A stretch of DNA of 44,613 bases, from NCBI GenBank assembly GCA_903834145.1, contig CAILHY010000021.1:1-44613 (forward strand), in the 5' to 3' direction. The translations under genes were made by a program, and so were the position numbers. The notes beneath the pieces were generated by a model, which made no database searches, had not been told where the DNA came from, and saw only the letters and a list, made by a program, of their open reading frames with translations. Each line of letters begins with the position of its first letter. Position 1 is the first letter of the stretch. Positions 7,286 to 44,550 of the stretch are shown piece by piece. Source of the DNA: an uncultured Actinomycetes bacterium (GTDB lineage: Bacteria > Actinomycetota > Actinomycetes > Nanopelagicales > Nanopelagicaceae).

Positions 7286-7290
7286 TTGAG

Positions 7291-28638: not shown

Positions 28639-28707
28639 AGTCTCTTGTCTCCTTCTGTAGCCGATGGAAGATCCATCAGTAGTAGAACAATCCTAGGTTG
28701 CAGATTC

Positions 28708-28744
28708 TTCCCAGCAAGCGTGGAAGACGCTCACAGGCTGGGAA
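28708..28744 (-). terminator. Hairpin, possible terminator after the nitroreductase
   Basis: An 8-base stem ttcccagc/gctgggaa (28708-28715 with 28737-28744) encloses a second short stem agcg/cgct. It lies after the nitroreductase stop and before the Bax-like promoter. There is no T-tract, so efficiency is uncertain. Confidence 0.45.
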
Positions 28745-28784
28745 TGAGCATAGAAAGAAGCCCTCTCAGGCCAAAAAGGAAGAC

Positions 28785-29480: not shown

Positions 29481-30455
29481 CTAATGTGAAAACAGCGCCT
29501 TTTTGATTGCCAAGATGCGGTTTTTCCAAATGAGTTGAGACAGGGCAGCCTCGGGAGCAAATAACTCTGCTGCGTGAAAGGCGCCCGGGTAGAGGTGGAA
29601 TTCAATGGGCACACCAGAACTTGCGATGCGTCCAACCAACTCAATTACTTCGTCGCGGAATAGATCCACAGTTCCGACATCAATAAAAGTTGGAGGCAAG
29701 TTTGAGAAATCAACCGCACGTGCCGGAGCTGCATAAGCAGGAACATCACTAATTTCAGTGGTGGATCCGAGATACCACCGCCATGCTTCAAGTTGTTCGT
29801 GTCGATCCCAGACACCAACATCAACAACTTCGAAGGATGAAACCGTGGTACTTCGATCATCAACCATGGGATAAATGGGCGCAAGAAAAGCAATCTCAGG
29901 ACCACCACGATCACGAGCCATCAACCCCAAGGCCAAAGCCAAGTTACCGCCGGCGCTCTCGCCATACACCGCAATCTTTTTAGGATCAATCGCCAAATCT
30001 TGCGCGTTTGCAACTATCCATTCCAACGCGGCATAGCAATCTTCCAAACCTGCAGGATATGGGAATTCAGGAGCCAATCGATAATCGATAGCGATTGTCA
30101 CTGTTCCGGAATCCTCACATAGCGTGCTCGCATGTGCATCATCGGCGGCAATGCTTCCCATGAACATTCCACCACCATGAATAGCCAATATCGCGGGTAG
30201 CACTCCCGAACCATTCTTCGGACGGTATATGCGAATCGGAGTTGTGCCTGCACCAGATAATTGAGGGATTACGAGATCTTCTTTAGTGACATTCACATTC
30301 TCTGGAGTATCAGCGCTTGCGGCTTGCAAGGATTCCAAATGCGCCGTTCGTCTTTCAACGGGATCCTTTAGCACTCCAAGACCGCCTGGAAATCTTTCCA
30401 GATGAGCGGCTAACGCAACCTTGAGTTCGGGATCGATCTGATTCTTTATCGTCAT
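29481..30455 (-). CDS. Alpha/beta hydrolase, hormone-sensitive-lipase (family IV) type
   Basis: The 324-residue esterase has the HSL oxyanion motif HGGG at 93-96 (LAIHGGGMFMG), nucleophile Ser167 in GESAGG, probable acid Asp264 (GTVDLFRDE) and His294 (GAFHAAE). Family members hydrolyse short-chain or aromatic acyl esters, usually in the cytoplasm; no signal peptide is present. It is the last gene of the catabolic island, 8 bases after the MBL-fold gene. In context it could release an acyl group from the imported substrate. That role is inferred. Confidence 0.92.
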   Translation of the reverse strand: MTIKNQIDPELKVALAAHLERFPGGLGVLKDPVERRTAHLESLQAASADTPENVNVTKEDLVIPQLSGAGTTPIRIYRPKNGSGVLPAILAIHGGGMFMGSIAADDAHASTLCEDSGTVTIAIDYRLAPEFPYPAGLEDCYAALEWIVANAQDLAIDPKKIAVYGESAGGNLALALGLMARDRGGPEIAFLAPIYPMVDDRSTTVSSFEVVDVGVWDRHEQLEAWRWYLGSTTEISDVPAYAAPARAVDFSNLPPTFIDVGTVDLFRDEVIELVGRIASSGVPIEFHLYPGAFHAAELFAPEAALSQLIWKNRILAIKKALFSH

Positions 30456-30463
30456 GTGCTCGC

Positions 30464-31417
30464 TTACTTGTAGAGGGCTATGCCGGTAGAAGAAGTACTC
30501 TTTACAACTTTTCCGTATGAAACCAACACTTCAAGAGCGCCAAGAACGGGGTAAACCAAATACTTGTAGGCGGGATCTGGCCAGACTCCAAGTCGATCGT
30601 GAGAGATTTCAATGATCTCTAATAGCGAAATGGGTTTGGCGCTCTTTGTAAGAGTCTCCAAAGTTACGCTCTCAACCAGGTCTGTATAGCTCAAGGATAT
30701 GTCAAGAAAATCTATGCCATCTTGTCCGACGTAGCGTGGATAGTGCGAGGTAAGGATCTCGGCAGGATGCAAACCTTTAATCATCCGAATCGTGGATCGA
30801 TACGCTTCAACAAATCGGTAGGTCGGCGGGAAGGCATGTTCACCTGTTGCCAGCAAAACGGATTGTCCGAGCACGGCATCACCAATCATCATGGCGCCAG
30901 TAGTTTCATCGAGTATCGATAGGTGACCCCAGGAATGCCCAGGCGTATGCAATATCTGCACACAACGATTGCCAAGGTCAATGCGCTCGTTTCCGGCGAA
31001 ACCAATATCAACGGAAGTCTCAAAAGCCACTGTCCCAATGAAATCAACAGCTTCTTGAGATTCAGCAAAACCATGCTCCTTGGAGAATTCGTTATAGCGA
31101 TCATCTACCATCTTTGACAAATCAACGATCATGTCGCGATCGCGCTCTCCACAGCAAATCAAAGCGTTCGGCATCAATTCCTTCACTGCTTTATTTCCGC
31201 CGGTGTGGTCATAATCTGAGTGAGTATTTATTGCATAACGAACCTTCTCGAGAGAAAGCGAGTGAGCATTCATATAAGGAATAAGGGTTTCTCGAATGGA
31301 TTGATCAAATCCTGTGTCCAGCAATAGCGTGTAGTCATCTCCGACAACCAAGTACAGGGCAACGTAACGCGGCCCGATTGGGCATTCCACTCTATGTATC
31401 CCCGGCAATATTTCCAT
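30464..31417 (-). CDS. Metallo-beta-lactamase-fold hydrolase
   Basis: The 317-residue protein has the metal motif THSDYDHTGG (an HxDxDH variant seen in many MBL-fold proteins), then LHTPGHSWGHLSILDE for the third-metal His, and MIGDAVLG for the bridging Asp. The C-terminal part (about 210-317) is helical with EILTSHYPRYVG. Such proteins hydrolyse thioesters, lactones or phosphoesters. Beside CoA-ester genes, a thioesterase or lactonase is plausible. It starts 2 bases after the crotonase gene's stop. Confidence 0.88.
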   Translation of the reverse strand: MEILPGIHRVECPIGPRYVALYLVVGDDYTLLLDTGFDQSIRETLIPYMNAHSLSLEKVRYAINTHSDYDHTGGNKAVKELMPNALICCGERDRDMIVDLSKMVDDRYNEFSKEHGFAESQEAVDFIGTVAFETSVDIGFAGNERIDLGNRCVQILHTPGHSWGHLSILDETTGAMMIGDAVLGQSVLLATGEHAFPPTYRFVEAYRSTIRMIKGLHPAEILTSHYPRYVGQDGIDFLDISLSYTDLVESVTLETLTKSAKPISLLEIIEISHDRLGVWPDPAYKYLVYPVLGALEVLVSYGKVVKSTSSTGIALYK

Positions 31418-31419
31418 TG

Positions 31420-32211
31420 CTACCTCCCCTTGAATTGCGGTTGACGTTTTTCTATAAATGCCGCGCGCCCTTCATCGCTATCCTCCGTTGTGAAGCAATA
31501 GGCGAAGGTGTCATTCTCATATTGAAGTCCAATATCCACTGCAGTAGACATGGAAATTCGCACCAAGTGCTTAGCTAATTCAGTTGCAATCGGCGCGTTC
31601 ATCGCAATTCGTGAGGCCAAATTGGCGACCGCTTCGTCGATTTCGCTTTCTTCCAAAAGCCGATCTACCAGACCCTTTCGTTCTGCATCAGCGGCAGAAA
31701 CTAAATCACCTGTTAACAACATTTCTAGAGCTTTTCCTGTGCTCATAATTCTTGGCAACAGTTGAGTATTTCCGGCACCACCATGCCAGCCCAATTTGAT
31801 TTCACCCGCACCGAATTTCGATTCGACGGTGGCGTATCGAATATCAGACATAAGCGCCATCTCTAAACCGCCACCAATGCAGTACCCGCGAATCTTCGCA
31901 ATAACCGGCTTGCGAATTTGCCATATTCCGCGGGCATAATCCACACGATTTCGCAGCTCCCAATTTGAACCGTAGTCATCCAAAACTTTTACATCACTAC
32001 CTGCAGAGAATGCTTTCGATCCCGTCCCAGTTAAAATGATTACCCGAATTTCGGGATCATTATTTATATAGTTCACGAGTTCGATCAGCGCTTGTCCCAT
32101 TGCAGGCGTCATAGTGTTGAGTTTTTCAGGGCGATTTAATGTGATCGTTCCGATTCGATCAACAACTTCAAAGACGAGTTCGTCGGGCAACTTCGGGATT
32201 GTGAACTTCAT
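31420..32211 (-). CDS. Enoyl-CoA hydratase/isomerase (crotonase) family protein A
   Basis: The 263-residue crotonase has TLNRPEKLNTM, the oxyanion-hole regions AFSAGSDVKVL and GYCIGGGLEMALMSD, and both candidate acid/base glutamates: Glu137 (GAGEIKLG) and Glu163 (KALEMLLTGD). The usual P-G-A-G-G segment is replaced by GWHGGAGNTQLL, a feature shared with the paralogue at 34015. It may hydrate, dehydrate or cleave a CoA thioester from the CoA-transferase step. ATG 32211 overlaps the regulator's stop (ATGA). Confidence 0.92.
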   Translation of the reverse strand: MKFTIPKLPDELVFEVVDRIGTITLNRPEKLNTMTPAMGQALIELVNYINNDPEIRVIILTGTGSKAFSAGSDVKVLDDYGSNWELRNRVDYARGIWQIRKPVIAKIRGYCIGGGLEMALMSDIRYATVESKFGAGEIKLGWHGGAGNTQLLPRIMSTGKALEMLLTGDLVSAADAERKGLVDRLLEESEIDEAVANLASRIAMNAPIATELAKHLVRISMSTAVDIGLQYENDTFAYCFTTEDSDEGRAAFIEKRQPQFKGR

Positions 32212-32927
32212 TTACGCGCTTTCTTGCGAAAAGTATTTGACGAGCGCGTGGCTTCCTCAAGTAAGGCGCGCATCGCAATCTCAGCTGCATCTGCATCCTC
32301 ATCAATGATTGCATCTAAAGTGGCTTGATGGGTAGTCAAAAAATCACCATTGGAAATCACGTGGCGAACCATCTCATCTCGTATCTTGAGCAAAGGAATA
32401 AAGAGAAGCCCCATCTGCTTCATCAATTCATTCTGGGTTGCATCTAACAAGGCCTGATGAAATTCTGAATCCGCCTCTCCTATGATCGGAGAATCTGGTC
32501 CATCTTCATGAAAAGCATCGGTCATGCGCTTCATAGCCGCCGTCAAAGCATTTATATCTTTGGTGCCTCGACGTTTAGCCGCTATCCGAGCCACCCAAGG
32601 TTCATAGCTCGACCGGACTTCTTCTAAATCTTTCACTAACTCAGGAACGAGCCCTGAATCGTTGAGCCAGTGGATGACATCTGGATCTAAGAGATTCCAT
32701 TCATTACGACCCAAAACGATCGTGCCAATTTTCGTACGAGCACGAGTAAGACGTTTGTCATGTAAAACCTTGAGTGCTTCACGAACGACGGTTCGGCTCA
32801 CGCTAAATTGCAATTCTAAGGAATCAGCTGTCAAGATTGATCCGGCGGGAATTTTCCCAGAGACAATCTGACTTCCTAAGGTAGAAATTATTTGAGCAGG
32901 AAGGTTTCTGGCAACGGCAGTTCTCAT
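32208..32927 (-). CDS. GntR-family regulator with FCD domain
   Basis: The 239-residue protein has a winged helix-turn-helix (about 8-70: IISTLGSQIVSGKIPAGSILTADSLELQFSVSRTVVREALKVL). A linker with WNLLDPDVIHWL follows, and then a helical FCD ligand domain (residues 80-225) with metal-type residues in EADSEFHQALLDAT. The NLLDPDV segment is typical of sugar-acid regulators such as DgoR. Sitting inside the island and overlapping both neighbours by 4 bases, it is the likely local repressor. The palindromes at 36046 and 42156 are candidate operators. Confidence 0.93.
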   Translation of the reverse strand: MRTAVARNLPAQIISTLGSQIVSGKIPAGSILTADSLELQFSVSRTVVREALKVLHDKRLTRARTKIGTIVLGRNEWNLLDPDVIHWLNDSGLVPELVKDLEEVRSSYEPWVARIAAKRRGTKDINALTAAMKRMTDAFHEDGPDSPIIGEADSEFHQALLDATQNELMKQMGLLFIPLLKIRDEMVRHVISNGDFLTTHQATLDAIIDEDADAAEIAMRALLEEATRSSNTFRKKARK

Positions 32928-34012
32928 AAAAGGGAGTCTGCCTCACATATAGCAAGAGCCAAAGGCCCCTGGCCCCATGGAACAAGAAATCCACGTGGGG
33001 TGAATTCATAGTGGGACTTTCGAGTCGAAGCCATAACCGCAGCCGTAACATTAAGTAGGTGGCCGTTTTCATCTGTGTCTGCGATAGCACCGGCTAATGC
33101 CGCAATAAGAGCGGGCTTAACGAGCGCTTCATCAACAATTCCCATCTTGATTGCTCGTGCGAATCCTGTAGCCATAAAGGCTGCAGTAGAACCCTCTTCG
33201 CCAGATCGCTCGCTATCAACTACGCAAAACCAACGACCATCTTCTCTTTGCAGCTCGATCATTCTATAAATTTGTTTCGTGAGAGCTTCAACTAAACGAG
33301 AGCGGTGTTCGTGATCTTGTGGAATGTTATGTAAAACATCGAGTAACCCAAGCATTGACCACCCTTGGCCTCGCCCCCATGCTGGGCCAAACGTTCCTGG
33401 AACTCCATTGAGGAAGAAGTGATCGAATATTCCCTCGGGGGTTTGCAACGCATCAACATATGCAAGTGCCTGTGTGACGCCTACTTCAGTGAACTCTTGA
33501 TTTTCCAGAGCCTTACCCAACGCAGTGAAGAAGGGTGGATCAAAGTGCAGACAATCAACGCACGTGCCCCCCGGTGGTTCGGCAAGTAGCGCGGCTTCAT
33601 AAGGAGGTAGCGCTTCTCCCCCGTACGGTGGAATTAAGCAGAGCGATTCCCACGTGTCATAAATGCCACGATCAACGGTGCGACTCATGAGATATCGCGC
33701 AAGTGGAATCAGGGCTTCCAATAAAACGGTGTCGCCAGTTAACGTGGCAACTTCCACCATCGCCATTCCTGGCGCAGTGGCGTCCATTCTTTTGAATGGT
33801 GTCTGTCGAGTCGCCCAGGAGCGCATCCAGCCATGTGCGAAAGCTAGATAAGTGGGGTCTCCCAATAGTTTCCCTGTTTCAATAATTCCTTCAAAGCCCG
33901 TGGAGTCACCAAAATTCCAGGTGCTGTAGCGCATATCAGTGAGGGACTTGCCGATCTGTGACAACAAAACTAGACGATCTTCACGATTTGGAAGCGAAGG
34001 TGCTCTACTCAT
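32924..34012 (-). CDS. Glycoside hydrolase, GH88/GH105-like
   Basis: The 362-residue protein resembles (alpha/alpha)6-barrel unsaturated uronyl hydrolases. It has GTCVDCLHFDPPFFTALGKAL, then FGPAWGRGQGWSMLGLLDVL (about 207-226, the most diagnostic segment), REDGRWFCVVDSERSGEEGSTAAFMATGFARAI and HYEFTPRGFLVPWGQGPLALA near the end. Those families remove 4,5-unsaturated uronic acids from oligosaccharides made by lyases. No signal peptide is present, so it would act on imported substrate. It overlaps the regulator by 4 bases and lies 2 bases past a crotonase gene. Assignment to family is good, exact substrate unknown. Confidence 0.78.
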   Translation of the reverse strand: MSRAPSLPNREDRLVLLSQIGKSLTDMRYSTWNFGDSTGFEGIIETGKLLGDPTYLAFAHGWMRSWATRQTPFKRMDATAPGMAMVEVATLTGDTVLLEALIPLARYLMSRTVDRGIYDTWESLCLIPPYGGEALPPYEAALLAEPPGGTCVDCLHFDPPFFTALGKALENQEFTEVGVTQALAYVDALQTPEGIFDHFFLNGVPGTFGPAWGRGQGWSMLGLLDVLHNIPQDHEHRSRLVEALTKQIYRMIELQREDGRWFCVVDSERSGEEGSTAAFMATGFARAIKMGIVDEALVKPALIAALAGAIADTDENGHLLNVTAAVMASTRKSHYEFTPRGFLVPWGQGPLALAICEADSLL

Positions 34013-34014
34013 AT

Positions 34015-34809
34015 TTAGCGCCCCTTGAATTCTGGTTTACGTTTTTCGGCGAAGGCTCGTTGACCTTCTGCCGCATCTTCTGTTGTCATGCAATAAGAAA
34101 AAGAATCATTTTCGTAAAGTAAACCAATATCCAGTGGCGTATTTTGCGCCATGCGGATCATATGTTTTGTCATCTGAGCTGCGATTGGGGCTTTCTCGGC
34201 AATAGAGTCGGCAATTTCAATTGCTCTACTAAGAACTTGGTCCCCGCTCACCAATTCCTGTACCAATCCCATACGCAATGCAACATCTGCAGTAACTGCC
34301 TCGCCATGTAATAAGAAAAGTGAGGCATTGCCCGGTCCAACCGTATGAGTAAGCAATTGTGTCTGCCCAGACCCGCCGTGCCAGCCCCAACGAATTTCTC
34401 CAGCCATATATTTTGCCTCAGGGGTAGAAATGCGAACATCCGACGCGCATGCCATCTCTAATCCGCCACCTATGACCCAACCGTGAAGCGCGGCAACAAC
34501 AGGCTTCTTGATCAACCAAATGGCACGGGCATAATCAAGATTTCGAGAGAATCTGTTGCGGTACTCCCAGTTGCTTCCATACTCATCGAGCTCTGTGAGG
34601 TCACTCCCGGCGCAAAAGCCTTTCTCGCCCTTTCCGTAGAGAACAACGGATCTGATTGCCAAGTTGTTATTGATCTGCCCGATGTATGAATTCATCTGCT
34701 CATCCATGACTACGGTCATGGCATTGATCTTTTCGGGCCGATTGAGAATCAGATGCGCTGTCGCTCCGTGAATTTCAAGGTCAACACTGCCAGAGAGTTT
34801 TGCGCTCAT
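34015..34809 (-). CDS. Enoyl-CoA hydratase/isomerase (crotonase) family protein B
   Basis: The 264-residue protein resembles the crotonase at 31420: GFCAGSDLTELDEYGSNWEYRNR, GWVIGGGLEMACASD, GEIRWGWHGGSGQTQLL, and an identical ending EFKGR/QFKGR style. Glu138 is kept, but the second glutamate position is Leu164 (NASLFLL). A standard hydratase mechanism is therefore unlikely; isomerase, decarboxylase or C-C cleavage activity should be considered. It begins 3 bases after the CoA-transferase gene stop. The two may have arisen by duplication in the island or form a mixed complex. Confidence 0.9.
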   Translation of the reverse strand: MSAKLSGSVDLEIHGATAHLILNRPEKINAMTVVMDEQMNSYIGQINNNLAIRSVVLYGKGEKGFCAGSDLTELDEYGSNWEYRNRFSRNLDYARAIWLIKKPVVAALHGWVIGGGLEMACASDVRISTPEAKYMAGEIRWGWHGGSGQTQLLTHTVGPGNASLFLLHGEAVTADVALRMGLVQELVSGDQVLSRAIEIADSIAEKAPIAAQMTKHMIRMAQNTPLDIGLLYENDSFSYCMTTEDAAEGQRAFAEKRKPEFKGR

Positions 34810-34812
34810 GTA

Positions 34813-36039
34813 CTACTCCTTCACCGATGCAACTGCGTTTGATTGGATTAACTGATCAATTTTCGTATCTGAATATCCCAAAATTTGAGCCAAGATCTCT
34901 CGTGTGTGTTCACCCAGGGCAGGCGCACCTCGAGTGATCGCGGGCGGAGTTTCGGAAAGACGAAGTGGTGGGCGAATAGTTTTTGCCGAGCCCCCACGAA
35001 ATTGCGGTTGTTCCCAGATGTAGTTGTCTTCAATAATGTGGCGGTCTTTCACTAGGTCTTCATAATTGTAGACAGGCCCACACCAGGCACCAGCCTTGTC
35101 GCAGATTTCAATCCACTCATCCGTTGTCTTGTCTTCGAAGCTGTGACGAATTAATTTATAAACATCATCACGGTGCTCATGCCCTGCGTTGTAATGCGTG
35201 AGTGAACGCAACCATTCGTTATCTAGAATCTCTCCCAGGATATTGAGAGGCACCATCGCCAAGGTCAGCCATGCATCTTTTGTCTTGTAAACGCCATACG
35301 GAGCCGGAATTGAACCGTGGGCACTCCGCTCATTAAGACGGCGTGGCATTCGTCCTGCATTTAAGAAGGTTACAAACTCTTGAAGCTGGCAATCCATTAC
35401 AACAGATAACATATCGATTTCAACGTGTTGTCCGACTCCGGTGGTATGACGCGATTCAACGGCGGCCAGAATCCCAATCACTGCTTGATAACCCGTCATG
35501 ACATCAGCGCCCCACAGCGCGCTAGGTGTTGGGTCATCACCTAGTGCACCCACGCTAAACATCGAGCCGCTGTAGCCTTGAACGATCAGATCTTGACCTG
35601 GACGATTCTTATATGGTCCGGTAGATCCGTATCCAGAGATAGAGCAATAGATAATCCGAGGATTTATTTTTTTCAAATCCTCATAACCAATGCCAAGTCG
35701 TGCCGCAGTTCCATGTCGAAAATTTTGTAGAAAGACATCTGAATTCTTGATCAATTCATACATTATTTCTTTGGCTTCCGGATTCTTTAAATCGATTGCT
35801 AAAGAACGTTTGTTTCGGTTAACAGCCAAGTAGGTTGTCATTTCACCATTGCTCTGTTGATCTTCAAAGCCTCGGGTTCGATTAAACTCACCAATCGTTG
35901 GCGGTTCGATCTTGATGACATCGGCACCAAGGTCGCCAAGTCTTGTGCCAGCCAAAGGACCCGCCAACATCTGGGTGGCATCGATAACGCGAAGTGAGGC
36001 CAAGGCCCCGGCTTTTGATGGATGTGCTTGGGATGTCAT
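34813..36039 (-). CDS. Class III CoA-transferase (CaiB/BaiF family)
   Basis: The 408-residue enzyme has the family start LRVIDATQMLAGPLAGTRLGDLGADVIKIEPP, then NRNKRSLAIDLKNPEAKEIMYELIKNSDVFLQNFRHG and the likely catalytic Asp150 in PGQDLIVQGYSG. Such enzymes transfer CoA from one acyl-CoA to a carboxylic acid. In this island it would activate an acid for the crotonases. A palindrome lies directly upstream (36046-36057), and the 73-base gap to the SDR gene suggests an internal promoter. Confidence 0.94.
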   Translation of the reverse strand: MTSQAHPSKAGALASLRVIDATQMLAGPLAGTRLGDLGADVIKIEPPTIGEFNRTRGFEDQQSNGEMTTYLAVNRNKRSLAIDLKNPEAKEIMYELIKNSDVFLQNFRHGTAARLGIGYEDLKKINPRIIYCSISGYGSTGPYKNRPGQDLIVQGYSGSMFSVGALGDDPTPSALWGADVMTGYQAVIGILAAVESRHTTGVGQHVEIDMLSVVMDCQLQEFVTFLNAGRMPRRLNERSAHGSIPAPYGVYKTKDAWLTLAMVPLNILGEILDNEWLRSLTHYNAGHEHRDDVYKLIRHSFEDKTTDEWIEICDKAGAWCGPVYNYEDLVKDRHIIEDNYIWEQPQFRGGSAKTIRPPLRLSETPPAITRGAPALGEHTREILAQILGYSDTKIDQLIQSNAVASVKE

Positions 36040-36045
36040 CGTTAA

Positions 36046-36057
36046 ATACTTTAGTAT
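36046..36057. promoter_or_regulatory. Palindrome atactttagtat, candidate GntR operator
   Basis: A perfect 12-base inverted repeat lies 6 bases before the CoA-transferase ATG. It closely matches ataccttggtat at 42156-42167, upstream of the binding-protein gene; both fit atac-y-tt-r-gtat. FCD-type GntR proteins bind short palindromes of this kind. Confidence 0.45.
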
Positions 36058-36112
36058 GAAGAATCTAATGTCAATGGATTTTGGGCGCGATTATTCGTCA
36101 TGGGGGCGCCTT

Positions 36113-36871
36113 CTAGGCGAATCTCGCGTGAAGTCCGCCATCAACAATCCAATCGGCTCCATTCACGAATGAGGCCGCGTCCGAAAGCAAGAATGTGACG
36201 ACTTTTGCAATCTCGGATGGTTCACCCATTCGAGCCATGGGTTGAACGGCCATCGATTCGGCAGCTTTTTCAGGTAGGCGATCAAACCACTCCTGCAAGA
36301 GTGGAGTCAGTGTGTATCCAGGGGAAACAGCATTCGTTCGGATGTTGTTTGCGCCTTCATCAAGAGCCAAGTTATGCGTTAGCCCAATAACACCTGATTT
36401 TGCAGCGGCGTACGGAAAGTATTTTGGATAAGTCATACGCGCATGGATCGATGCGATGTTAACGATCGAACCTTTCTTAGCAGCGCGCATGGCAGGTAAA
36501 ACTAATTTTGCTGTGTGCCAAACACTTTTCAGATCGACATTCATAAACTTATTCCACTCGTCATCGGTCATTTCAACCGGATCGGCGTTGGAATTAACGC
36601 CGGCATTATTTACTGCGCCGTTAACTGGACCAAATTCGCTCACAAGTATGTCGTGGGCAATCTTGAGCGATTCAAACTGACCTACATCTGCCTTCGCAAA
36701 ACGAACATCAAACCCTTGTGATGTCAAAGCGGCCACGTAGGCCTGGCCCTTGGCTTCATTGATGTCGCAAAAAGAAGTACGCGCTCCGGCTTGTAAAGTA
36801 TCCAAAACTATCGCAGCGCCAATTCCATCGGCTCCGCCCGTTACGAAAATGTGTTGACCATTTAGATTCAT
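36113..36871 (-). CDS. Short-chain dehydrogenase/reductase
   Basis: The 252-residue classical SDR has the nucleotide-binding TGGADGIG (11-18), NNAGVN, the catalytic Ser in NIASIHA and the YAAAK pair Tyr/Lys (about 154-158). The C-terminal NGADWIVDGG is standard. Asp near the end of strand 2 (FCDINEAKG) favours NAD(H). It probably oxidises or reduces a hydroxyl of the sugar or sugar acid. It follows the dehydratase-like gene by 12 bases. Confidence 0.94.
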   Translation of the reverse strand: MNLNGQHIFVTGGADGIGAAIVLDTLQAGARTSFCDINEAKGQAYVAALTSQGFDVRFAKADVGQFESLKIAHDILVSEFGPVNGAVNNAGVNSNADPVEMTDDEWNKFMNVDLKSVWHTAKLVLPAMRAAKKGSIVNIASIHARMTYPKYFPYAAAKSGVIGLTHNLALDEGANNIRTNAVSPGYTLTPLLQEWFDRLPEKAAESMAVQPMARMGEPSEIAKVVTFLLSDAASFVNGADWIVDGGLHARFA

Positions 36872-36883
36872 ATTTTTCTCCTT

Positions 36884-38047
36884 TTACCAGTCCGCTACAG
36901 AGCCGTCATTGTGAAACCATTGTGTTGCTGAAACTGCATTGAAGGGATGCTCCGCTGCAAGAATTTCATCCATCTCTACGCCGATACCTGCAGCCGTAGG
37001 TGGATAGATAAAGCCATCTTCAATTTCTGGGACACCAGTAAAAACTTCATTGCGCCAGGGAACATCCGCACGCATAACCTCTTGAATAAGAAAGTTAGGA
37101 ATCGTCAGACCAAGGTGCACGTTGACCATTGTTGCGATGGGGCCAAGCGGATTATGTGGCGCCATTGTTACGCCGTACGTCTCGCACAAGGAGGCGATCC
37201 GACGAATTTCGGTAACGCCGCCAGCATGACAAACATCAGGTTGTGCCACATCAATGAGTCCAGCTTCCAATATCGGCAAGAAGTCCGCCCGTGTAAGGAG
37301 CCGCTCACCAGCAGCTAGCGGAACCCGTATCCCAGCACGGGCCACTTTCATAGCTTCTACTTGATCAGGTTGAACCACTTCCTCTAAAAAGAGCGGATTA
37401 AATGGTTCTAACACTCTGGAGTATGCAATTGCTTGTGCGGCCGTAGTGCGGCCGTGGAAATCGATCATGATGTCGACATCTGGCCCCGCAGCGCTGCGCG
37501 CAGCTTCCATGAGTTCCCCGGCGTGACGAAGATTCTCAGCTTCGCCTAACGGACCTGACTTGGGAACAGCGAGGATCTTTACCGCCGTGAAACCATCGGA
37601 AATACTCTTCTTCATCTTTTCCGCAAAGGAAGATCCGGAATCGGAGTTGTAAACAGCATCTGAATTACCTCCGCCAAGATGGTCATACATCCGAACTCGG
37701 TCTCTGGCCAAACCACCCAAGATTCGGTACAGGGGAACGTTGAGGTCTTTTGCCGAAATATCCCACAGTGCCTGATCGATGCCACTGATGGCCGACATTG
37801 TTACAACGCCACCTTTAAAAAAGGGATGTCTATAAAGGATCTGCCAATTTCTTTCGATCTCACGAGGATCGCGCCCAACGATAAGTGGTGCCAAATCATC
37901 GATCGCACCGACAACGGCTTGGGCCTGGAATTCCACGGTAGCTTCACCGATTCCAATGAGCCCGGCAACATCGGTGTAGACACGAACTATTACCCAGTTT
38001 CGCATTTTCGCATTAACAACTGTGGAAGTTATCTTCGTGATCTTCAT
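36884..38047 (-). CDS. Enolase-superfamily sugar-acid dehydratase (galactonate dehydratase-like)
   Basis: The 387-residue enzyme has a capping domain (1-115) and a barrel with metal and catalytic residues: Asp196 and His198 in DIMIDFHGR, Glu222 (FLEEVV), Glu248 (AAGERLLTR) and His298 in APHNPLGPIA. PDVCHAGGVTEIRR is also typical. The DFHGR and HNPLGPIA pattern resembles D-galactonate dehydratase (DgoD), which forms a 2-keto-3-deoxy sugar acid. The next gene encodes a DHDPS-family lyase, the usual partner. The true substrate may be another aldonate or uronate. Confidence 0.9.
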   Translation of the reverse strand: MKITKITSTVVNAKMRNWVIVRVYTDVAGLIGIGEATVEFQAQAVVGAIDDLAPLIVGRDPREIERNWQILYRHPFFKGGVVTMSAISGIDQALWDISAKDLNVPLYRILGGLARDRVRMYDHLGGGNSDAVYNSDSGSSFAEKMKKSISDGFTAVKILAVPKSGPLGEAENLRHAGELMEAARSAAGPDVDIMIDFHGRTTAAQAIAYSRVLEPFNPLFLEEVVQPDQVEAMKVARAGIRVPLAAGERLLTRADFLPILEAGLIDVAQPDVCHAGGVTEIRRIASLCETYGVTMAPHNPLGPIATMVNVHLGLTIPNFLIQEVMRADVPWRNEVFTGVPEIEDGFIYPPTAAGIGVEMDEILAAEHPFNAVSATQWFHNDGSVADW

Positions 38048-38101
38048 TCCTGTGCACCTCGTACTTTTCCGATGACGTTATGGATTTTTGAAAACTGATG
38101 A

Positions 38102-39010
38102 TCACACATTCGTTGCCACCGATTCCACCAATGCTAGAACTTCGGCAATTTCTCTTTCGTTCTGCGCGGTTATCTTCGAGGTGGGATTTCGACAATAGTC
38201 CGTAGCAATAATTCCTCTGCGTTGCAGAATTCGTTTTTCTACCGCAATTAGCAGTTCTAGGTCTTGAAGCCAGGTAGCAATATAAGGAATAAATTTATCG
38301 AGGCGGGCTGCAAATTCAACGTCATCGCCATCAGATAAGGCCACTTGCGCCCAGTGATAAAGATCAGTTAAGCCACAACCTGGTTGTATGCCCTGAGCAC
38401 CTGCTTTGACGCCATCCTTCCAATAAATTCCGCCCCAGCCAATCAATGTTTTTACTCTGTCGTTCGTCACCTCGCGCACTTTTACTATTGATTCCATCGG
38501 AGGGTTCGCTTCACATTTAATTATGCGCATATTAGGAAATTGATCCGCCAACTTGAGAAGCTCTCCCACATCTTGCATACCACCAGCCTGAGGCAGATGC
38601 TGAATTACGGTAGGTATGCTCACAGCGCCAAGAATCATTGAAATATGTTTCCTGACTTGGTCGCTAGTTGGCGCGAAGAATGTAGGGGGCAAGATATTTA
38701 TGTAATCAACACCCATCGACTGATAATCGTGAGCGCGTTTCACCGCTAATTCCGCCGAATGGTCAGCGACGGAGGCGATAACTTGCAACTGCGAACCTTG
38801 CCGTAAATCCAGCAGCATCTCTAAAAGTGAATATCGTTCGGGATCCGAGAGTTTGATGTTCTCACTTGCCACGCCAAAGAAGAGCGTGGACTTAGTGCCA
38901 ATGGAGATAATCCATTCAACCAACGAAGCAAAACTTTCATAATCAACTTCGCCTTCGTTGGTGAAAGGCACTGCCAATACTGGACAAACCCCTTCGATCG
39001 TGGATGTCAT
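38102..39010 (-). CDS. DHDPS/N-acetylneuraminate-lyase-family aldolase or dehydratase
   Basis: The 302-residue barrel enzyme keeps the Schiff-base lysine, Lys165 (RIIKCEANPP), and a G-x-x-x-E pyruvate-binding variant (FFGVASE). The position normally holding the catalytic Tyr (LYNVP) reads VIQHLPQ, with Gln137. It may therefore not be a normal synthase or aldolase; related proteins act on 2-keto-3-deoxy acids as aldolases or dehydratases. Context beside a dehydratase-like enzyme supports cleavage or dehydration of its keto-deoxy product. It lies 19 bases downstream of the permease gene. Confidence 0.88.
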   Translation of the reverse strand: MTSTIEGVCPVLAVPFTNEGEVDYESFASLVEWIISIGTKSTLFFGVASENIKLSDPERYSLLEMLLDLRQGSQLQVIASVADHSAELAVKRAHDYQSMGVDYINILPPTFFAPTSDQVRKHISMILGAVSIPTVIQHLPQAGGMQDVGELLKLADQFPNMRIIKCEANPPMESIVKVREVTNDRVKTLIGWGGIYWKDGVKAGAQGIQPGCGLTDLYHWAQVALSDGDDVEFAARLDKFIPYIATWLQDLELLIAVEKRILQRRGIIATDYCRNPTSKITAQNEREIAEVLALVESVATNV

Positions 39011-39029
39011 GGGGAATGGCGTTCGATCG

Positions 39030-40037
39030 TTACTTCTTGACTCTTCTGCTAATGATTGCTTGCAGGATTACCGACGCAATGATTACTAATCCAAAGAAGA
39101 CTTGGGTGTAGAAGGCGTTAATTCCTGCAGCAACAATTCCTGCGTTGATTGCCCCAATGATGAAGGCGCCCACAAAGGTGCCGGTAACAGTTCCGGTTCC
39201 ACCAAATACGCTAGTACCCCCCAAGAAAACAGCAGCAATAGAGTTAAGAAGTAAACCTCCACCCATTGTTGGCCAGAAGTATGAAACCTCGAAAGAACCG
39301 ATCATTCCTGCAAGAGCCGAGAAAACTCCCACCAAGGCAAAACTCCAACGCTTCACGCGATTGACGTTGACACCCATAAGCTGCGCTGAAATTTTGTTAT
39401 CACCCGTAAGGAATACATGCGAGCCAAATTTTGATCTATTGAGAACTAACCAGAGAACACCGGTTGCAAATATTGTCCACCAGAACTGGTTTGCAATTCC
39501 AAAGAATGTACGGCCAACCAACAACTTATCGATGAGGTTGAACTTAGGATCGGTGAGATCTGCGCCAGAACCATTGGTCCAAGCTAGCTCTAAGCCAAGA
39601 AAGAGGAATTGAGTGCCGATGGTAATAACGAGCGAAGGAATATTGAAAGCAGTAACGAGATAACCATTAATGAATCCACAAGCTAGTCCCATGGCAACAG
39701 CCGCGAGTACACCAACAAAAATCGGTGCCCCTCCTGAGACGGTCTTCGCAAAAGCGCAGGTTGAGAGCGCCATGATTGACGGGAAGGAAAGGTCGATCTC
39801 CCCTGTTATGACCACCAAAGTAAGCGGAATAGCCATCAACGCGAAAATCGGAGTTGTGGCAGCAAATGCTAAGTAAATCTCTGGGTGAGTAAAGGAGCTT
39901 GGCGCGGAGATAACGAAGGCCAACCACATAACGATTCCAACGGACCAGATACCAAATTGCATACCAAAACGTCGCCAAAATGACGGCGGGCGAGCTGCAT
40001 TGGCTTTTGGCTTAACTTCTTGGCTATCTTGCGACAT
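39030..40037 (-). CDS. Sugar ABC transporter permease (RbsC-like)
   Basis: The 335-residue protein has about nine or ten membrane helices. The RbsC-type signature is seen: GEIDLSFPSIMALSTCAFAK, GFINGYLVTAFNIPSLVITIGTQFLFLGL, and MGGGLLLNSIAAVFLGGTSVFGGTGTVTGTFVGAFIIGAINAGI. It forms the channel of a ribose/xylose-type importer. Its ATG overlaps the ATPase stop by one base (TAATG). Only one permease gene is present, so a homodimer is expected. Confidence 0.94.
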   Translation of the reverse strand: MSQDSQEVKPKANAARPPSFWRRFGMQFGIWSVGIVMWLAFVISAPSSFTHPEIYLAFAATTPIFALMAIPLTLVVITGEIDLSFPSIMALSTCAFAKTVSGGAPIFVGVLAAVAMGLACGFINGYLVTAFNIPSLVITIGTQFLFLGLELAWTNGSGADLTDPKFNLIDKLLVGRTFFGIANQFWWTIFATGVLWLVLNRSKFGSHVFLTGDNKISAQLMGVNVNRVKRWSFALVGVFSALAGMIGSFEVSYFWPTMGGGLLLNSIAAVFLGGTSVFGGTGTVTGTFVGAFIIGAINAGIVAAGINAFYTQVFFGLVIIASVILQAIISRRVKK

Positions 40038-40813
40038 TAGTTTTGCTCCTTCAAATTTCCGGTGCGAGCAACGCGATACATGCTCTCAATTAACTCGTCC
40101 ATTGTTATTTCACTCTTCTTGTACATACCTGCAACTTTGCCTCGATCCAGAACAATCATGCGATCAACGGCAGGATAGATATGGAAAATATTGTGATCAA
40201 TAAAAATTGCCGAACGACCTGATTTTTTAATATTCTGAACAAAATCGAGCGTCTTCTTGGTTTCAGAAAGTGAGAGCCCAACTGTTGGCTCATCCAAGAT
40301 CACTAGTTCGGCTTCAAAGTGCAAGGCGCGGGTAATCGCAACACCTTGTTTTTCTCCACCTGACATAGTTTGGACCGGATTATCTGGGTGTACTGCGACC
40401 GACGTGAAGCCCATGTGTTCACTCATGAGCCTGGTGGCTTCCGCCTTCATCGCTTTGACATTGAGCATTCCGAAACGATTGACGATTTCGCGTCCCATAT
40501 ACATGTTGCGCCAAATGGGTTGCTGCTCACAAAGTGCGCGTTCCTGATAAATGGTTTCAATTCCAAGTGATCGTGCTTTTGCAACGCTCCAATCGGTGAT
40601 CTTCTCACCTTTAAACCAAATCTCACCGCCATCATCAGGCTTATGAAAGCCCATGATCGTCTTTACCAAAGTGGATTTACCTGCGCCGTTATCTCCAAGC
40701 AATCCAACGATCTCACCTGGAAAAATTTCCAAGTTCACGTCAGAGAGTGAACGCACCTCACCAAATGTCTTAGAGACATTCTTCAATTGGATAACTGGTT
40801 GCTGGCTGTTCAT
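40037..40813 (-). CDS. Sugar ABC transporter ATP-binding protein, single domain
   Basis: The 258-residue ATPase has Walker A GDNGAGKST (about 36-44), a Q-loop (ETIYQERALCEQQPIWRNMYMGREI), the signature MSGGEKQGVAITRA and Walker B LVILDEPTVGLS. The sequence resembles RbsA/XylG/FrcA. RbsA-type proteins usually carry two ABC domains (about 500 residues); this has one, like FrcA, so a homodimer is likely. It is followed without a gap by the permease and preceded by the binding-protein gene after a hairpin. Confidence 0.94.
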   Translation of the reverse strand: MNSQQPVIQLKNVSKTFGEVRSLSDVNLEIFPGEIVGLLGDNGAGKSTLVKTIMGFHKPDDGGEIWFKGEKITDWSVAKARSLGIETIYQERALCEQQPIWRNMYMGREIVNRFGMLNVKAMKAEATRLMSEHMGFTSVAVHPDNPVQTMSGGEKQGVAITRALHFEAELVILDEPTVGLSLSETKKTLDFVQNIKKSGRSAIFIDHNIFHIYPAVDRMIVLDRGKVAGMYKKSEITMDELIESMYRVARTGNLKEQN

Positions 40814-40862
40814 TAATGTGGCCTCTCGCTATTACTCAATGAGAACAATGTTAATTCGGAGG

Positions 40863-40896
40863 GGACCGACTGGAGTTTTTACACCCCAGCCGGTCC
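40863..40896 (-). terminator. Intergenic hairpin between binding-protein and ATPase genes
   Basis: An 11-base stem with one G-T pair (ggaccgactgg 40863-40873 with ccagccggtcc 40886-40896) has no T-tract on the minus strand. It probably acts as a partial terminator or mRNA stabiliser that gives more binding protein than membrane components. Confidence 0.55.
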
Positions 40897-40932
40897 TTAC
40901 CTTACTTTCGATATTTATTTCTCGTTAACGAA

Positions 40933-41955
40933 TTAACGAATGAGCTTTGCTGCAAGTGGAGCAATGATTGCAACGTTTGAGCTGTCAATGAATCCGCCTG
41001 CAGTATTGATATCCAATCCTGCGAATGCGTACTTCTTTGTCAAGCAGACCTGAAGAATTGGCAAGTATCCTTGTAGCCATTCTTGCTGATCAATTACCAA
41101 GCTGAGGTATCCGGACTTAATTGCGGTACCAACAGCTGGTGACATGTCGAAGCCTGCTACATAAACTCCGCCTGGCTTAATGCTTGCTGCCTTTAGGTAA
41201 GTCTCTGCAGTTGCTGTCAAACCACCGTGATCAAGGAATACTGACTTGATATCTGGGTGTGCTTGCATAACTCCAACGAATGTTGGTGCACCAGAGGCAG
41301 GAGTTGTATTAGTTGCTTGATCAATCTCTTGATAAACAACCTTGATTCCGGCCTTTGTTAATGCATCAATGATTCCAATTGTGCGTTGTGCACGATCTCC
41401 TGCAGCGCCCTTAAGGCCCCACACGAATGCACTTCCGCCGCTAGCAAGTTTGCCGCGCTTGATTGCTTCGTTAGCTAGATCGAAGCCTGCTTTGTAGTTT
41501 GTAGCTCCAACGAAGCCCATACCTGAAGCAGCATATGATGGTGTCAACACTGGAAGTTGTGAGTTTGCGTTAGCAACAACAATTCCCTTGCTAAATGCAT
41601 CTTTGATGATTGGACCAGCAGATGCATCACCGATCAAACCGACGATGCCGGCAATTCCATCTGGCTTAGAAGCAATAGCTTCTTTGAGCTGTGATGTCAT
41701 AAGGCTTGGGTCCCAGTTTGACCAATAATATTTAACTGTTGCGCCGAGATCTCTGGCTGCTTGAACTTGACCGTTATAAACGTTCACGGCAAAAGTTCCG
41801 CCTTGCGGTCCACCTGGGAATGCGGCGATCTTTACGCCTGCACACCAACGGGTTGTTGCTGCAGCTGTGGCGGGAGTAGTACTAACTACAGCAACAGAAG
41901 CAGATGCAAGTAATGCGATGGCAGAGATGCCAACCTTTAAGCGAAGTGCTTTCAT
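40933..41955 (-). CDS. Sugar ABC transporter substrate-binding protein (RbsB-like)
   Basis: The 340-residue protein has a Sec signal peptide (about 1-32, LLASASVAVVSTTPATAAA) and a two-lobed periplasmic-binding fold of the Peripla_BP_4 type: GIAGIVGLIGDASAGPIIKDAFSKGIVVANANSQ, GATNYKAGFDLANEAIKRG, SVFLDHGGLTATAETYLKAA and VAGFDMSPAVGTAIKSGYLSLVIDQQ. No lipobox is seen, although most such proteins of Gram-positives are lipid-anchored. It is the first gene of the island. The 324-base upstream gap (41956-42279) holds its promoter, the candidate operator at 42156 and a terminator for the next gene. The substrate cannot be read from sequence. Confidence 0.93.
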   Translation of the reverse strand: MKALRLKVGISAIALLASASVAVVSTTPATAAATTRWCAGVKIAAFPGGPQGGTFAVNVYNGQVQAARDLGATVKYYWSNWDPSLMTSQLKEAIASKPDGIAGIVGLIGDASAGPIIKDAFSKGIVVANANSQLPVLTPSYAASGMGFVGATNYKAGFDLANEAIKRGKLASGGSAFVWGLKGAAGDRAQRTIGIIDALTKAGIKVVYQEIDQATNTTPASGAPTFVGVMQAHPDIKSVFLDHGGLTATAETYLKAASIKPGGVYVAGFDMSPAVGTAIKSGYLSLVIDQQEWLQGYLPILQVCLTKKYAFAGLDINTAGGFIDSSNVAIIAPLAAKLIR

Positions 41956-42155
41956 ATATCCTCCTGACAGTGGGTCGAAAATCGAACCCTGGATATTTAT
42001 ACTTCATACTTAATGTTAAATACATAGTTTTGCCAAAGTTATTTAATTGTTACAAACGCAACTTTCCAATTAAAAGAACTAATGGCTTCGAAAGTGAATA
42101 TCAATTGTTCGGGAAAAGACCTCCAAGTACCGTAATCCCGACCGGGGGTGAGGCC

Positions 42156-42167
42156 ATACCTTGGTAT
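42156..42167. promoter_or_regulatory. Palindrome ataccttggtat, candidate operator upstream of the island
   Basis: A perfect 12-base inverted repeat lies about 200 bases before the binding-protein ATG. It pairs with the similar site at 36046-36057. The distance is long for a classical operator, so a distal promoter or a looping site is possible. Confidence 0.35.
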
Positions 42168-42211
42168 TTCGTTCCTCTTGCGAGAATGCAAGCACAGGTG
42201 TAGTGAAATAG

Positions 42212-42259
42212 AAAAACACCCACACGAATCCAACAGCAATGCTGCATAACGTGTGGGTG
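42212..42259 (-). terminator. Rho-independent terminator
   Basis: A perfect 10-base stem (cacccacacg 42217-42226 with cgtgtgggtg 42250-42259) is followed on the minus strand by five T residues. It ends the secreted-protein gene at 42280-42864. Confidence 0.85.
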
Positions 42260-42279
42260 CCGAACTTGATGCTCGTCTT

Positions 42280-42864
42280 CTATAGAAGCGTGTTTGTTGA
42301 CTTAATGAATGCTAATAGAGATTGTGAAGGTGTGGCTGATGCCGGTGCAGAGAAAGTCAAAATGATGAACTTTCCGCCAGCAACCCATGCATCTAGGCGA
42401 ATGCTTCCGGCAGTAAGTGTGGATCCAACGCCATCTTCTTTGCCGTTACCCAAATCTAAATAGTCAGCGACTCCGCCAACGGGAGTGTTTTTCATGGCCC
42501 CGGCAGATTGCTTTGCCATGTAAGACAGGTATTGAGTAGCGGTCATCGCCGGCTTGCTTTTACCTTGAGCTGTAACAGAAAGTTTTGCAATATCGGCCGG
42601 GCTTACGCAACCAACGACGAGCGCCTTTGCACCGAAATCGATCGTAGTGCCAAGAGCATTGGCCTGATTAGCTGAAACGGTTTTGTAGTTATACGCAGTA
42701 ATTTTTGGGCCCGTTGCCAGTGTGTATCCATCTGCCACGACGACGGCCTTTGTGATTGAAGCGCATGTTGGAGAAGAAGCGCCAGCTGCCTCAACGCTAA
42801 GAATCCCCATGCCACCGGTGAGAATGACAGTGAGTGCGGTTGCAATGCTTTTTTGTAGTTTCAT
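42280..42864 (-). CDS. Secreted protein of unknown function
   Basis: The 194-residue protein has a signal peptide (SIATALTVILTGGMGILSVEAAGA, cleavage near residue 30) and a soluble domain with two Cys (PTCASITK, VVGCVSPADI) that may pair. The sequence is rich in Ala/Thr/Lys with alternating beta and helical stretches (GSIRLDAWVAGGKFIILTFSAPA). No family is recognised. It is a single gene with its own terminator. Its location, between the import system and the partial tRNA copy, does not reveal a role. Confidence 0.75.
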   Translation of the reverse strand: MKLQKSIATALTVILTGGMGILSVEAAGASSPTCASITKAVVVADGYTLATGPKITAYNYKTVSANQANALGTTIDFGAKALVVGCVSPADIAKLSVTAQGKSKPAMTATQYLSYMAKQSAGAMKNTPVGGVADYLDLGNGKEDGVGSTLTAGSIRLDAWVAGGKFIILTFSAPASATPSQSLLAFIKSTNTLL

Positions 42865-42977: not shown

Positions 42978-42996
42978 GTGCCCCGAGTGGGGGTCG
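42978..42996 (-). repeat. 19-bp copy of the tRNA 3' segment (attachment-site-like)
   Basis: gtgccccgagtgggggtcg matches 44443-44461 exactly, in the same orientation. It covers the T-loop and T-stem 3' side and the acceptor 3' strand of the tRNA. No other part of a tRNA is present. Such partial copies mark integration sites of tRNA-targeting elements. Confidence 0.85.
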
Positions 42997-43075
42997 GTAA
43001 GTCTCAAGCCAGCACGCCACAGATCGAATAGTCCAGAATTTACGGTGCAGGCCAATCACCAACGTTTCGGCTTGT

Positions 43076-44269
43076 CTACTTTTTCTTGTAGCCAGTTGGG
43101 CACACAGGTTTAACTGCACTTACTTTCTTGGTGGCATCGCCTTTTATACAGATAATGGTCGACATTTTCGATGCAACTTTTTTTACCTCAGGGATGGTTA
43201 CCAGAGCCGAAAGCGATAGGTCATTTGACGCTTTTAAGATAATCGTGGGCGAACTGTAGTGAAAACCAAACGCTTTAACTCTTAATATTCCCCTTTCAAT
43301 ATTCACAGAAGTTGTCGCAATTTGTACCGTTCCATCTGTGTTAACAACAGAAATTTCTACACGAGGTGATTTTGTTAAAACGTTTTGTGGCCATCTGCAA
43401 TCCAGATACGCGATGGGAATGTCAGCGGTGAAGAACCCTTGATTAACCTCTCCCGTAGACAATTTATGTGGAGCACCTATATTAAACTTTAACGTTTCAT
43501 TGTCTGACATATATGGCTGTCCAGCACCAATTGCATTGGTAGATGTGACCGGATATCCAAATCCCCCGCAGGTAGGATCCCAAAAAGACCCTCCGCTAAT
43601 TGAACTTAAGTGATCGATAACAAAATAGAGAACTGGGCGCTCTCCATCAGAAATTGTTGTGTCCTGTACGGGAGTATTTAAGAGTGCGTACTTCTCAGCC
43701 GAATTCAGGGATGTGGAAAGGAATGGGCTTGCAATAAAAGTGTAGCGACTACCGACAGCAAGCTTCTCCTCAGAATAAGATGCATTTGCGCCATATAATC
43801 CAACTTCTTCCGGTTTCAACCAGGAAGTTCGTAGCACCAATTTAAATTTTTCACCAGACTTTATTTCGGAAGGATCAATATCTAGAAATGTGAACCACAT
43901 TGCTGGATAGCTCTTTTTATAAACTGGACTTATATAATTCTCACCATTTAATGAAGCTGTAACTACTAATTTACGCGTAACGGCATTCAAATCCTTGTAA
44001 GTCCAAACCGAGCCACTGTTGTCGATGGTTTGACCATACTCGTCGAGAAAATTCCCTGAAGCCGGTTGAAGTAGTTGCAGACTAGAAGATTTTCCATTTG
44101 GGTACAAAACAAGCAGGGACTCTATACAGTCTAACTCTGAAGTATTCATGCATGGGCGCAATGCCTTTTGCATACTTGATGATCGATCTATGTCACCAAT
44201 CGCAGTTGGAATAAGCGCAAGAGTTAGAACGGAAACTAAAGGGATTAAGAGAATCCGAATCAATTTCAT
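43076..44269 (-). CDS. Secreted protein with C-terminal CPTGYKKK motif
   Basis: The 397-residue protein has a signal peptide (IRILLIPLVSVLTLALIPTAIG). A mainly beta domain follows with paired Cys (PCMNTSELDC, PTCGGFGYP), then a C-terminal module ending TIICIKGDATKKVSAVKPVCPTGYKKK. I believe similar Cys/Lys-rich tails recur in acI-type secreted proteins, from memory only. It may be a sorting or wall-binding element. No enzyme motif is seen. The gene is bounded by the tRNA and its 19-base partial copy and looks more AT-rich than the flanking genes, so it may be transferred cargo. Confidence 0.8.
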   Translation of the reverse strand: MKLIRILLIPLVSVLTLALIPTAIGDIDRSSSMQKALRPCMNTSELDCIESLLVLYPNGKSSSLQLLQPASGNFLDEYGQTIDNSGSVWTYKDLNAVTRKLVVTASLNGENYISPVYKKSYPAMWFTFLDIDPSEIKSGEKFKLVLRTSWLKPEEVGLYGANASYSEEKLAVGSRYTFIASPFLSTSLNSAEKYALLNTPVQDTTISDGERPVLYFVIDHLSSISGGSFWDPTCGGFGYPVTSTNAIGAGQPYMSDNETLKFNIGAPHKLSTGEVNQGFFTADIPIAYLDCRWPQNVLTKSPRVEISVVNTDGTVQIATTSVNIERGILRVKAFGFHYSSPTIILKASNDLSLSALVTIPEVKKVASKMSTIICIKGDATKKVSAVKPVCPTGYKKK

Positions 44270-44440
44270 AGATGAATTCTAACTTCTTTAGGTAATACCG
44301 CTTAGTGCTTGGTACGCAACCTAAACCCTGAGTGTAAGAATCTAACAATGGGCGATCTACATTGATCCGCCAGCCCAATGACAGAGGCAGTAGGAGCGAG
44401 AGCGCTGCCCGAGTGCAGATGAATTAGAATTTCTGCGAAC

Positions 44441-44515
44441 TGGTGCCCCGAGTGGGGGTCGAACCCACACTGGGAGGATTTTAAGTCCTCTGTCTCTGCC
44501 ATTGGATTACGGGGC
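44441..44515 (-). tRNA. tRNA with anticodon UAA (Leu)
   Basis: On the minus strand the sequence GCCCCGU pairs with UCGGGGC (six pairs plus a T-T), with discriminator A and encoded CCA. The anticodon stem GAGGA/TCCTC encloses CTTAAAA, giving UAA, which reads the Leu codon UUA. The T-arm GTGGG-TTCGACC-CCCAC is intact. The D-arm is weak. The variable loop is only about 5 bases, whereas bacterial tRNA-Leu normally has a long variable arm. Identity rests on the anticodon. Length is 75 bases including CCA. Confidence 0.85.
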
Positions 44516-44516
44516 C

Positions 44517-44550
44517 AGAAAGGCGCTGCCGCACTGGCCTACGCCTTTCT
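44517..44550. terminator. Hairpin next to the tRNA 5' end
   Basis: A perfect 9-base stem agaaaggcg/cgcctttct (44517-44525 with 44542-44550) ends 2 bases before the mature tRNA start on the minus strand. It could terminate an upstream transcript from outside the window or guide 5' processing. Confidence 0.5.

Follow-up and report, generated by a model that had tools for sequence, protein, structure and literature searches.

The 1.5-kb segment that follows a tRNA-Leu(UAA) gene at one end of the DNA analysed here is best read, with a probability of about 0.85, as a non-autonomous, single-gene integrative cassette, inserted by tyrosine-recombinase-type recombination in the T-loop of the tRNA gene and forming one unit of an additive array. 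The whole stretch of DNA (the window) makes up one entire contig of 44,613 bp (G000:C21), among the 33 of a 1.75 Mb genome from a family that includes the isolates IMCC26103 and IMCC19121. The reading draws on pairs of occupied and empty sites, a hybrid fragment in the relative G020, a census of 107 loci, an integrase beside the tRNA-Leu gene or its fragment, a left end shared with elements in genomes G305 and G244, and the low GC content of the cargo. Counted against it are a displaced fragment of only 19 bp in the window, the lack of a member of the integrase family in G000 and in most cassette-bearing genomes, the missing start of the left end, the absence of any observed circle or excision product, and the lack of an empty-site counterpart sequence for the window tRNA copy, both relevant contigs ending next to tRNAs.

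Site-specific recombination in the T-loop would replace the tRNA 3′ end with the tRNA-like end of the cassette itself, pushing the old 3′ end to the far side of the cassette, where 19 bp are still recognisable, and the cassette would join an additive array at the family's tRNA-Leu(UAA) hot spot. Autonomous members carry an integrase beside the displaced fragment and the small cassettes have none; the latter are probably relatives of the autonomous elements with internal deletions, mobilised in trans wherever a related integrase occurs, or else passed on as the array undergoes homologous recombination.

Displaced tRNA 3′ end and cargo gene in the window

The minus-strand 19-mer CGACCCCCACTCGGGGCAC is present in identical, directly oriented copies at 42978–42996 and 44443–44461. 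The second copy is the 3′ part of a tRNA-Leu(taa) gene called by ARAGORN at 44441–44515 (minus strand). The 19-mer starts at the CGA of the T-loop and takes in one base, the first C, of the CCA that the gene encodes; its displaced copy (putative attR, minus strand) lies downstream of the tRNA 3′ end. A search of the window allowing up to 3 mismatches returned the two exact matches and no others (0 expected from 100 shuffles), and outside the tRNA itself the window has no exact match of at least 13 nt to it other than 42978–42996. The longest tRNA match in windows simulated by a first-order Markov model (200 runs) was 14 nt against the 19 nt observed, and the repeat is therefore real and not attributable to chance. 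The duplication of the tRNA 3′ end in direct orientation, with the segment downstream of the tRNA, thus holds as originally predicted.

The window tRNA, which would be the reconstituted att site on the attL side of the cassette (from the ARAGORN call, the repeat and the covariance score), scores weakly against the covariance model (35.5 vs 58.9–61.8 in relatives) and carries a T-T at acceptor pair 7 in its sequence; its 5′ half resembles tRNAs found beside integrases. The 98 bp from the tRNA to the contig end (44516–44613, minus strand) hold a hairpin 1 nt upstream of the tRNA (44517–44550, AGAAAGGCG/CGCCTTTCT). Together, the tRNA and these 98 bp are 97% identical to contig C13 of G020 over 171 bp, whereas the chromosomal flanks of the same two genomes are only 81–84% identical. 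The first base of this G020 contig is the same base as the window end (44613).

The upstream side of the G000 locus is found on contig C2; this contig stops 2 bp past a better paired tRNA-Leu(UAA) gene that it carries itself (C2:39040–39113). With the upstream side on C2 and the Bax1-inhibitor-like gene in the window, G000 has two tRNA-Leu(UAA) copies, the island lying between or behind them. The window copy was probably brought in as the att site of an element, and the C2 gene would then be the working resident; that the window tRNA is itself the resident gene was considered and is less likely, because the conserved upstream genes sit on C2. The tRNA locus of the original prediction is accordingly retained as tRNA-Leu(UAA), but given the better-paired copy on C2 it is probably not the resident gene. 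Both contigs end at tRNA-Leu copies (C2:39115 and window 44613), and assembly breaks at these copies suggest strain variation or repeats there.

Between the two repeats lies one gene (43076–44269, minus strand), co-oriented with the tRNA and ending with its stop codon 79 bp before the 19-bp fragment. The ORF encodes a predicted exported protein of 397 aa with a hydrophobic N-terminal segment and a C-terminal ...KPVCPTGYKKK tail; the protein had no match in Pfam or NCBIfam, and an AlphaFold model made without an alignment (mean pLDDT 30.8) was set aside. Predicted content of one secreted-protein gene and no integrase was therefore found, and the suggested check of GC and codon use gave a foreign-looking cargo of low GC (0.413 vs 0.489 for the window), with a GC3 of 0.36 that is not decisive for foreign origin by itself because neighbouring genes have values of 0.36–0.47. 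Matches to the segment in 60 relatives were the tRNA itself and, in three of them, a stretch of ~55 bp coding for the C-terminal tail; elsewhere the cargo gene has distant paralogues only, the best full-length one being 33% identical.

Empty and occupied sites in relatives

Searching named genomes with the 3′ end of the tRNA recovered mostly uncultured actinobacteria, many named as lake samples; Ca. Planktophila, Ca. Nanopelagicaceae and the two isolates (IMCC26103 and IMCC19121) were among the genomes recovered. Relatives carry mfd-like, MazG-like, enolase, Ppx-like and uracil-DNA-glycosylase-like genes on one side of the tRNA, and a Bax1-inhibitor-like gene with two transporter genes on the other, these names coming from reading and clustering the sequences rather than from a family search per gene. 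When an empty site is defined by a Bax1-inhibitor-like gene within ~300 bp of the tRNA, 38 of the 107 oriented loci are empty; others carry cargo. Displaced 3′ fragments, sought with a 25-mer core at up to 4 mismatches (0 matches in 200 kb of random sequence), were identified in 16 loci of this set and at further loci in the named-genome scan, with two fragments in tandem in IMCC26103 (L273), L292 and L310.

The occupied locus L197 and the empty locus L142 are 80.6% identical as far as the 3′ end of the tRNA and 89.9% identical where the alignment resumes at the beginning of the fragment, the one-gene insert of L197 (1.96 kb) having no counterpart in L142; L175 against IMCC19121 (L173; 95%) and L134 against L221 (99.7%) behave in the same way on the fragment side. 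By alignment, such pairs show textbook attL, attR and attB. One contig of G019 has the fragment beside an integrase gene, and another has an intact tRNA joined to the same downstream sequence. The comparison of relatives that the original prediction had called for therefore returned empty sites, or other cargo with longer displaced fragments; the secreted-protein gene and the 19-mer are not invariant features of this locus. Bacteriorhodopsin-like genes (PF01036) were also observed in the variable region beside tRNA-Leu (L067:9030–9836 and L076:8571–9344), in G010 on the downstream side of the fragment and in G007 on the upstream side of the tRNA.

Probable crossover point and candidate integrase

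The fragment that follows a cassette with a 196-aa gene in G020 is a hybrid, of cassette type as far as GGTTCGA and continuing as the G000 C2 tRNA does at its 3′ end (GTCCGACCGGGGGCACCACC); in G013 the same 196-aa cassette is followed by a different displaced 3′ end. Taken together, these ends point to a crossover within GGTTCGA of the T-loop, and the window fragment starts with the last three bases of this motif, matching expectation. The G020 DNA beyond its displaced end finds its match in G000 only at the end of C2. Differences between the G020 and C2 tRNAs reach into the 5′ half as well, despite identical DNA just upstream, such that conversion or replacement of the whole tRNA must also have occurred there.

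The integrase beside the G019 fragment is a tyrosine recombinase with Phage_integrase (PF00589) and Phage_int_SAM_3 domains, and 24 of the 296 family genomes hold relatives of it (E up to 1e-30). The closest of these mostly adjoin tRNA-Leu(UAA) or its fragment, and more distant ones adjoin other tRNA genes. Autonomous relatives of the cassettes span 7–13 kb with the tyrosine integrase next to the fragment, as in the complete element of G305 (tRNA, 7.9 kb, integrase, fragment, flank). The element of IMCC26103, likewise complete and with type IIG restriction-modification and helicase-like genes, occupies ~12.8 kb between two tRNA-Leu(UAA) copies (C1:89581–89654 and 76652–76727); beyond it lie two smaller units, both terminated by a fragment. 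Most cassette-bearing genomes are without the integrase, and G000 holds no member of this integrase family, its genome having XerC/XerD-like genes and a remnant only. Viral contigs gave neither an exact match to the 32-nt tRNA end nor a relative of the integrase, and no phage carrier was therefore identified. Defence genes matching HmaB and HmaC were observed beside an integrase relative at L281:907–7065 (G009:C60).

Anatomy of the cassettes

Nineteen distinct integrase-less intervals, bounded on the left by the tRNA or a fragment and on the right by a fragment, were examined; some of them are not independent of others, and availability decided which loci entered the set. One gene is present in 14 of the 19, two genes in four and three in one, and the distance from stop codon to fragment is often 10–22 bp. 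Twenty of the 25 cassette genes are co-oriented with the tRNA, 19 of these 20 having a strongly hydrophobic N-terminal segment (by a simple hydropathy measure, not a signal-peptide predictor), and nine of the 25 end in a CPxGY(K) tail. By these features the cargo is mostly one exported protein read in the direction of the tRNA; any benefit that it brings is presumptive.

The tail, ITCxKGKxTKKVTAVxPxCPxGYKKK, is common to many otherwise different exported proteins of the family and could possibly, from its sequence, be a surface or sorting signal; no Pfam match covers it in the tail-bearing proteins tested. Confinement of tail-bearing genes to the tRNA-Leu site was considered and rejected, many being found elsewhere and some beside tRNA-Met or tRNA-Arg. 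Tail-bearing or related genes adjoin tRNA-Met(CAT) and tRNA-Arg(TCT) in L033 and L040, where they directly abut the tRNA 3′ end, with tRNAs also near L039 and L042, and these neighbourhoods may be further integration sites.

A structured left end

Approximately 320 bp between tRNA and cargo are common to 13 loci (L082, L272, L273, L276, L298, L304, L305, L307, L314, L318, L319, L327 and L344), comprising a box resembling TTCGTGCGTAAATTATC, repeats of the form ATGCATACACAA/ATTAATACATAA, the sequence GGAGGATTTGAAGG, two hairpins (the second of them short) and TCTGCCTCTGCCATTGGGCT, in which the D-arm region of tRNA-Leu appears as its reverse complement. Covariation is seen in the first of the hairpins, with 0 of 500 shuffles scoring as high and slid controls far lower; over both helices, 20 cells are changed on both sides against 7.8 in shuffles. 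A covariance model run on the 296 genomes found ~18 strong copies, all of which lie immediately 3′ of tRNA-Leu(UAA) in the sequence examined around them, and two weaker or partial copies (L382 and L387) with no tRNA in that sequence. Its weak 41-bp matches are the antisense strand of the tRNA itself, which confirms the inverted tRNA segment. No Rfam family covers the module, which also occurs in the integrase elements of G305 and G244, and its shared presence suggests derivation of the cassettes from an integrase-bearing element.

The window has a partial copy between tRNA and gene (44234–44423, minus strand; nhmmer E 7.7e-20), which keeps profile positions 134–312 of ~320, lacks the first part, and holds an inverted piece of the tRNA-Leu 5′ half (CTGCCTCTGTCATTGGGCT); a partial match to covariance model R1 covers 44372–44496 (E 5.6e-8). 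The left end may act at the DNA level (arm sites), as a promoter, or through an RNA. Somewhat doubtful, and offered tentatively, is the further proposal of a dedicated system, in which interchangeable one-gene exported-protein units with this common structured left end (arm repeats, covarying hairpin and inverted tRNA-Leu segment) would be inserted in fixed orientation behind tRNA-Leu(UAA), an integron-like entry site, by the trans-acting integrase of sister elements; if so, transcripts running on from the tRNA would include a leader able to pair with the 5′ half of that same tRNA.

Remainder of the array in G000

Beyond the 19-bp fragment, a 13.4-kb block (29481–42864, minus strand) separates the cassette from the conserved downstream flank (27823–29369, minus strand), where the Bax1-inhibitor-like gene (27823–28638) and a nitroreductase-like gene (28785–29369) are found. 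The block, made up of transport and catabolic genes, encodes an ABC sugar transporter, galactonate-dehydratase-like, DapA-like and CaiB-like CoA-transferase proteins, an enoyl-CoA hydratase and an esterase; it is absent from the matching position in G020 and G250, and its far end falls where these two genomes have their fragment. A second, decayed fragment was sought at that end, where the best match was no better than shuffles. The block is probably an older addition to the same array, tandem accretion in G000 amounting to one fragment plus this block only. A tmRNA gene was also observed in the window at 7290–7657 (tag peptide ADTNQQAFTLAA).

Alternative explanations

The segment could be an ordinary genomic island in decay, a larger integrase-bearing element having integrated once and lost all but one gene; full integrase elements do exist at the site, and the truncated left end and short fragment of the window fit such a history. 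The one-gene layout nevertheless recurs in those 14 of 19 intervals with different genes, intact frames and often the same short spacing from stop codon to fragment, making independent decay to one layout less likely, and the same 196-aa cassette stands in two hosts with different displaced ends; on balance this history is unlikely. The original suggestion of an integration scar therefore stands as regards integration into the tRNA 3′ end, but the segment reads as a unit of a recurrent cassette class rather than as a scar. Nor is the residue of an imprecise excision the best reading, small cassettes in tandem arrays being recurrent and related to integrase-bearing elements.

Movement between strains by homologous recombination, with the tRNA and the tail-coding sequence as arms and no recombinase, would account for the high identity of the 171-bp tRNA-containing stretch relative to its flanks, for the difference of the whole G020 tRNA from the C2 tRNA (more than a 3′ exchange), and for the C-terminal tails common to cargo genes. 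Displaced 3′ ends and hybrid fragments come from site-specific integration and not from simple gene conversion, however, and integrases adjoin the fragments, leaving this route quite improbable as the full explanation; it may act as a secondary means of spread. Partial self-complementarity of the 19-mer raises the idea of a chance or convergent repeat unrelated to integration (for example, a hairpin CCCC-GAGT-GGGG), for which the simulations and mismatch search reported above, and the longer fragments at the matching place in relatives, leave almost no room. Integration of a single-gene cassette by a tyrosine recombinase remains the preferred reading.

Relation to known systems and significance

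Reports on Ca. Actinomarinales (PMC7771536), Ca. Methylopumilus (fGI-2; PMC10872708) and Alteromonas (PMC4119200) describe cassettes directed to tRNA genes and bounded by direct repeats. As in the additive flexible genomic islands of those reports, the tRNA is a repeated target for cassettes at a conserved site with strain-variable content: the same site in relatives is empty or carries different cargo, tRNA repeats are present, and several units stand in tandem in IMCC26103 (L273), L292 and L310. Unlike the islands as the passages used here describe them, the present locus is the tRNA-Leu(UAA) gene of the IMCC26103/IMCC19121 family with mostly one exported-protein gene, its crossover is narrowed to GGTTCGA, and an integrase family and a shared structured left end accompany it.

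CIMEs are cis-mobilisable, att-flanked elements without recombination genes, regarded as decayed ICEs or IMEs (PMC5704250). The window segment likewise has attL and attR with no recombination genes, and the cassettes resemble CIMEs in their att-like sites on both sides, lack of an integrase, and build-up in tandem with integrase-bearing elements at the 3′ end of a tRNA gene. The shared left end would also suggest derivation from an ICE or IME; compared with CIMEs, the one-gene size and shared left end suggest a recurrent cassette form. Tycheposons are presented in PMC10872708 as tRNA-flanked elements of streamlined plankton with a tyrosine recombinase, 4–200 kb in length and variable in cargo. 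By that description the IMCC26103 element, 12.8 kb long and flanked on both sides by complete tRNAs, looks similar to them, whereas the window segment, at 1.5 kb and with no recombinase, falls outside the class. Integron gene cassettes share the order of gene then recombination site, the common orientation, the tandem arrays and the single entry point, although the site here is a tRNA 3′ end and not attC. Of the features of an Islander-type island (PMC4383910), the regenerated tRNA and displaced 3′ fragment are present and an integrase inside the segment is absent. The kind is thus a known one, an additive tRNA island with a CIME-like cassette, here apparently in an undescribed variant: the open-access literature yielded no description of the tRNA-Leu(UAA) locus, and the site, integrase, crossover, one-gene exported cargo and shared left end are new as far as seen.

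Small mobile units of this type would escape island finders that depend on an integrase. The locus, also present in the two complete isolate genomes IMCC26103 and IMCC19121, offers a defined att site, a crossover within a few bases, a candidate integrase, and natural pairs of occupied and empty sites. The comparison with ~100 relatives shows tRNA-Leu(UAA) to be a plug-in site at which freshwater actinobacteria exchange small, mostly one-gene cassettes, some members of the cassette family having an integrase of their own; the bacterial genomes are small, yet hold variable exported proteins, transporters and defence genes, for which this locus is a concrete entry point.
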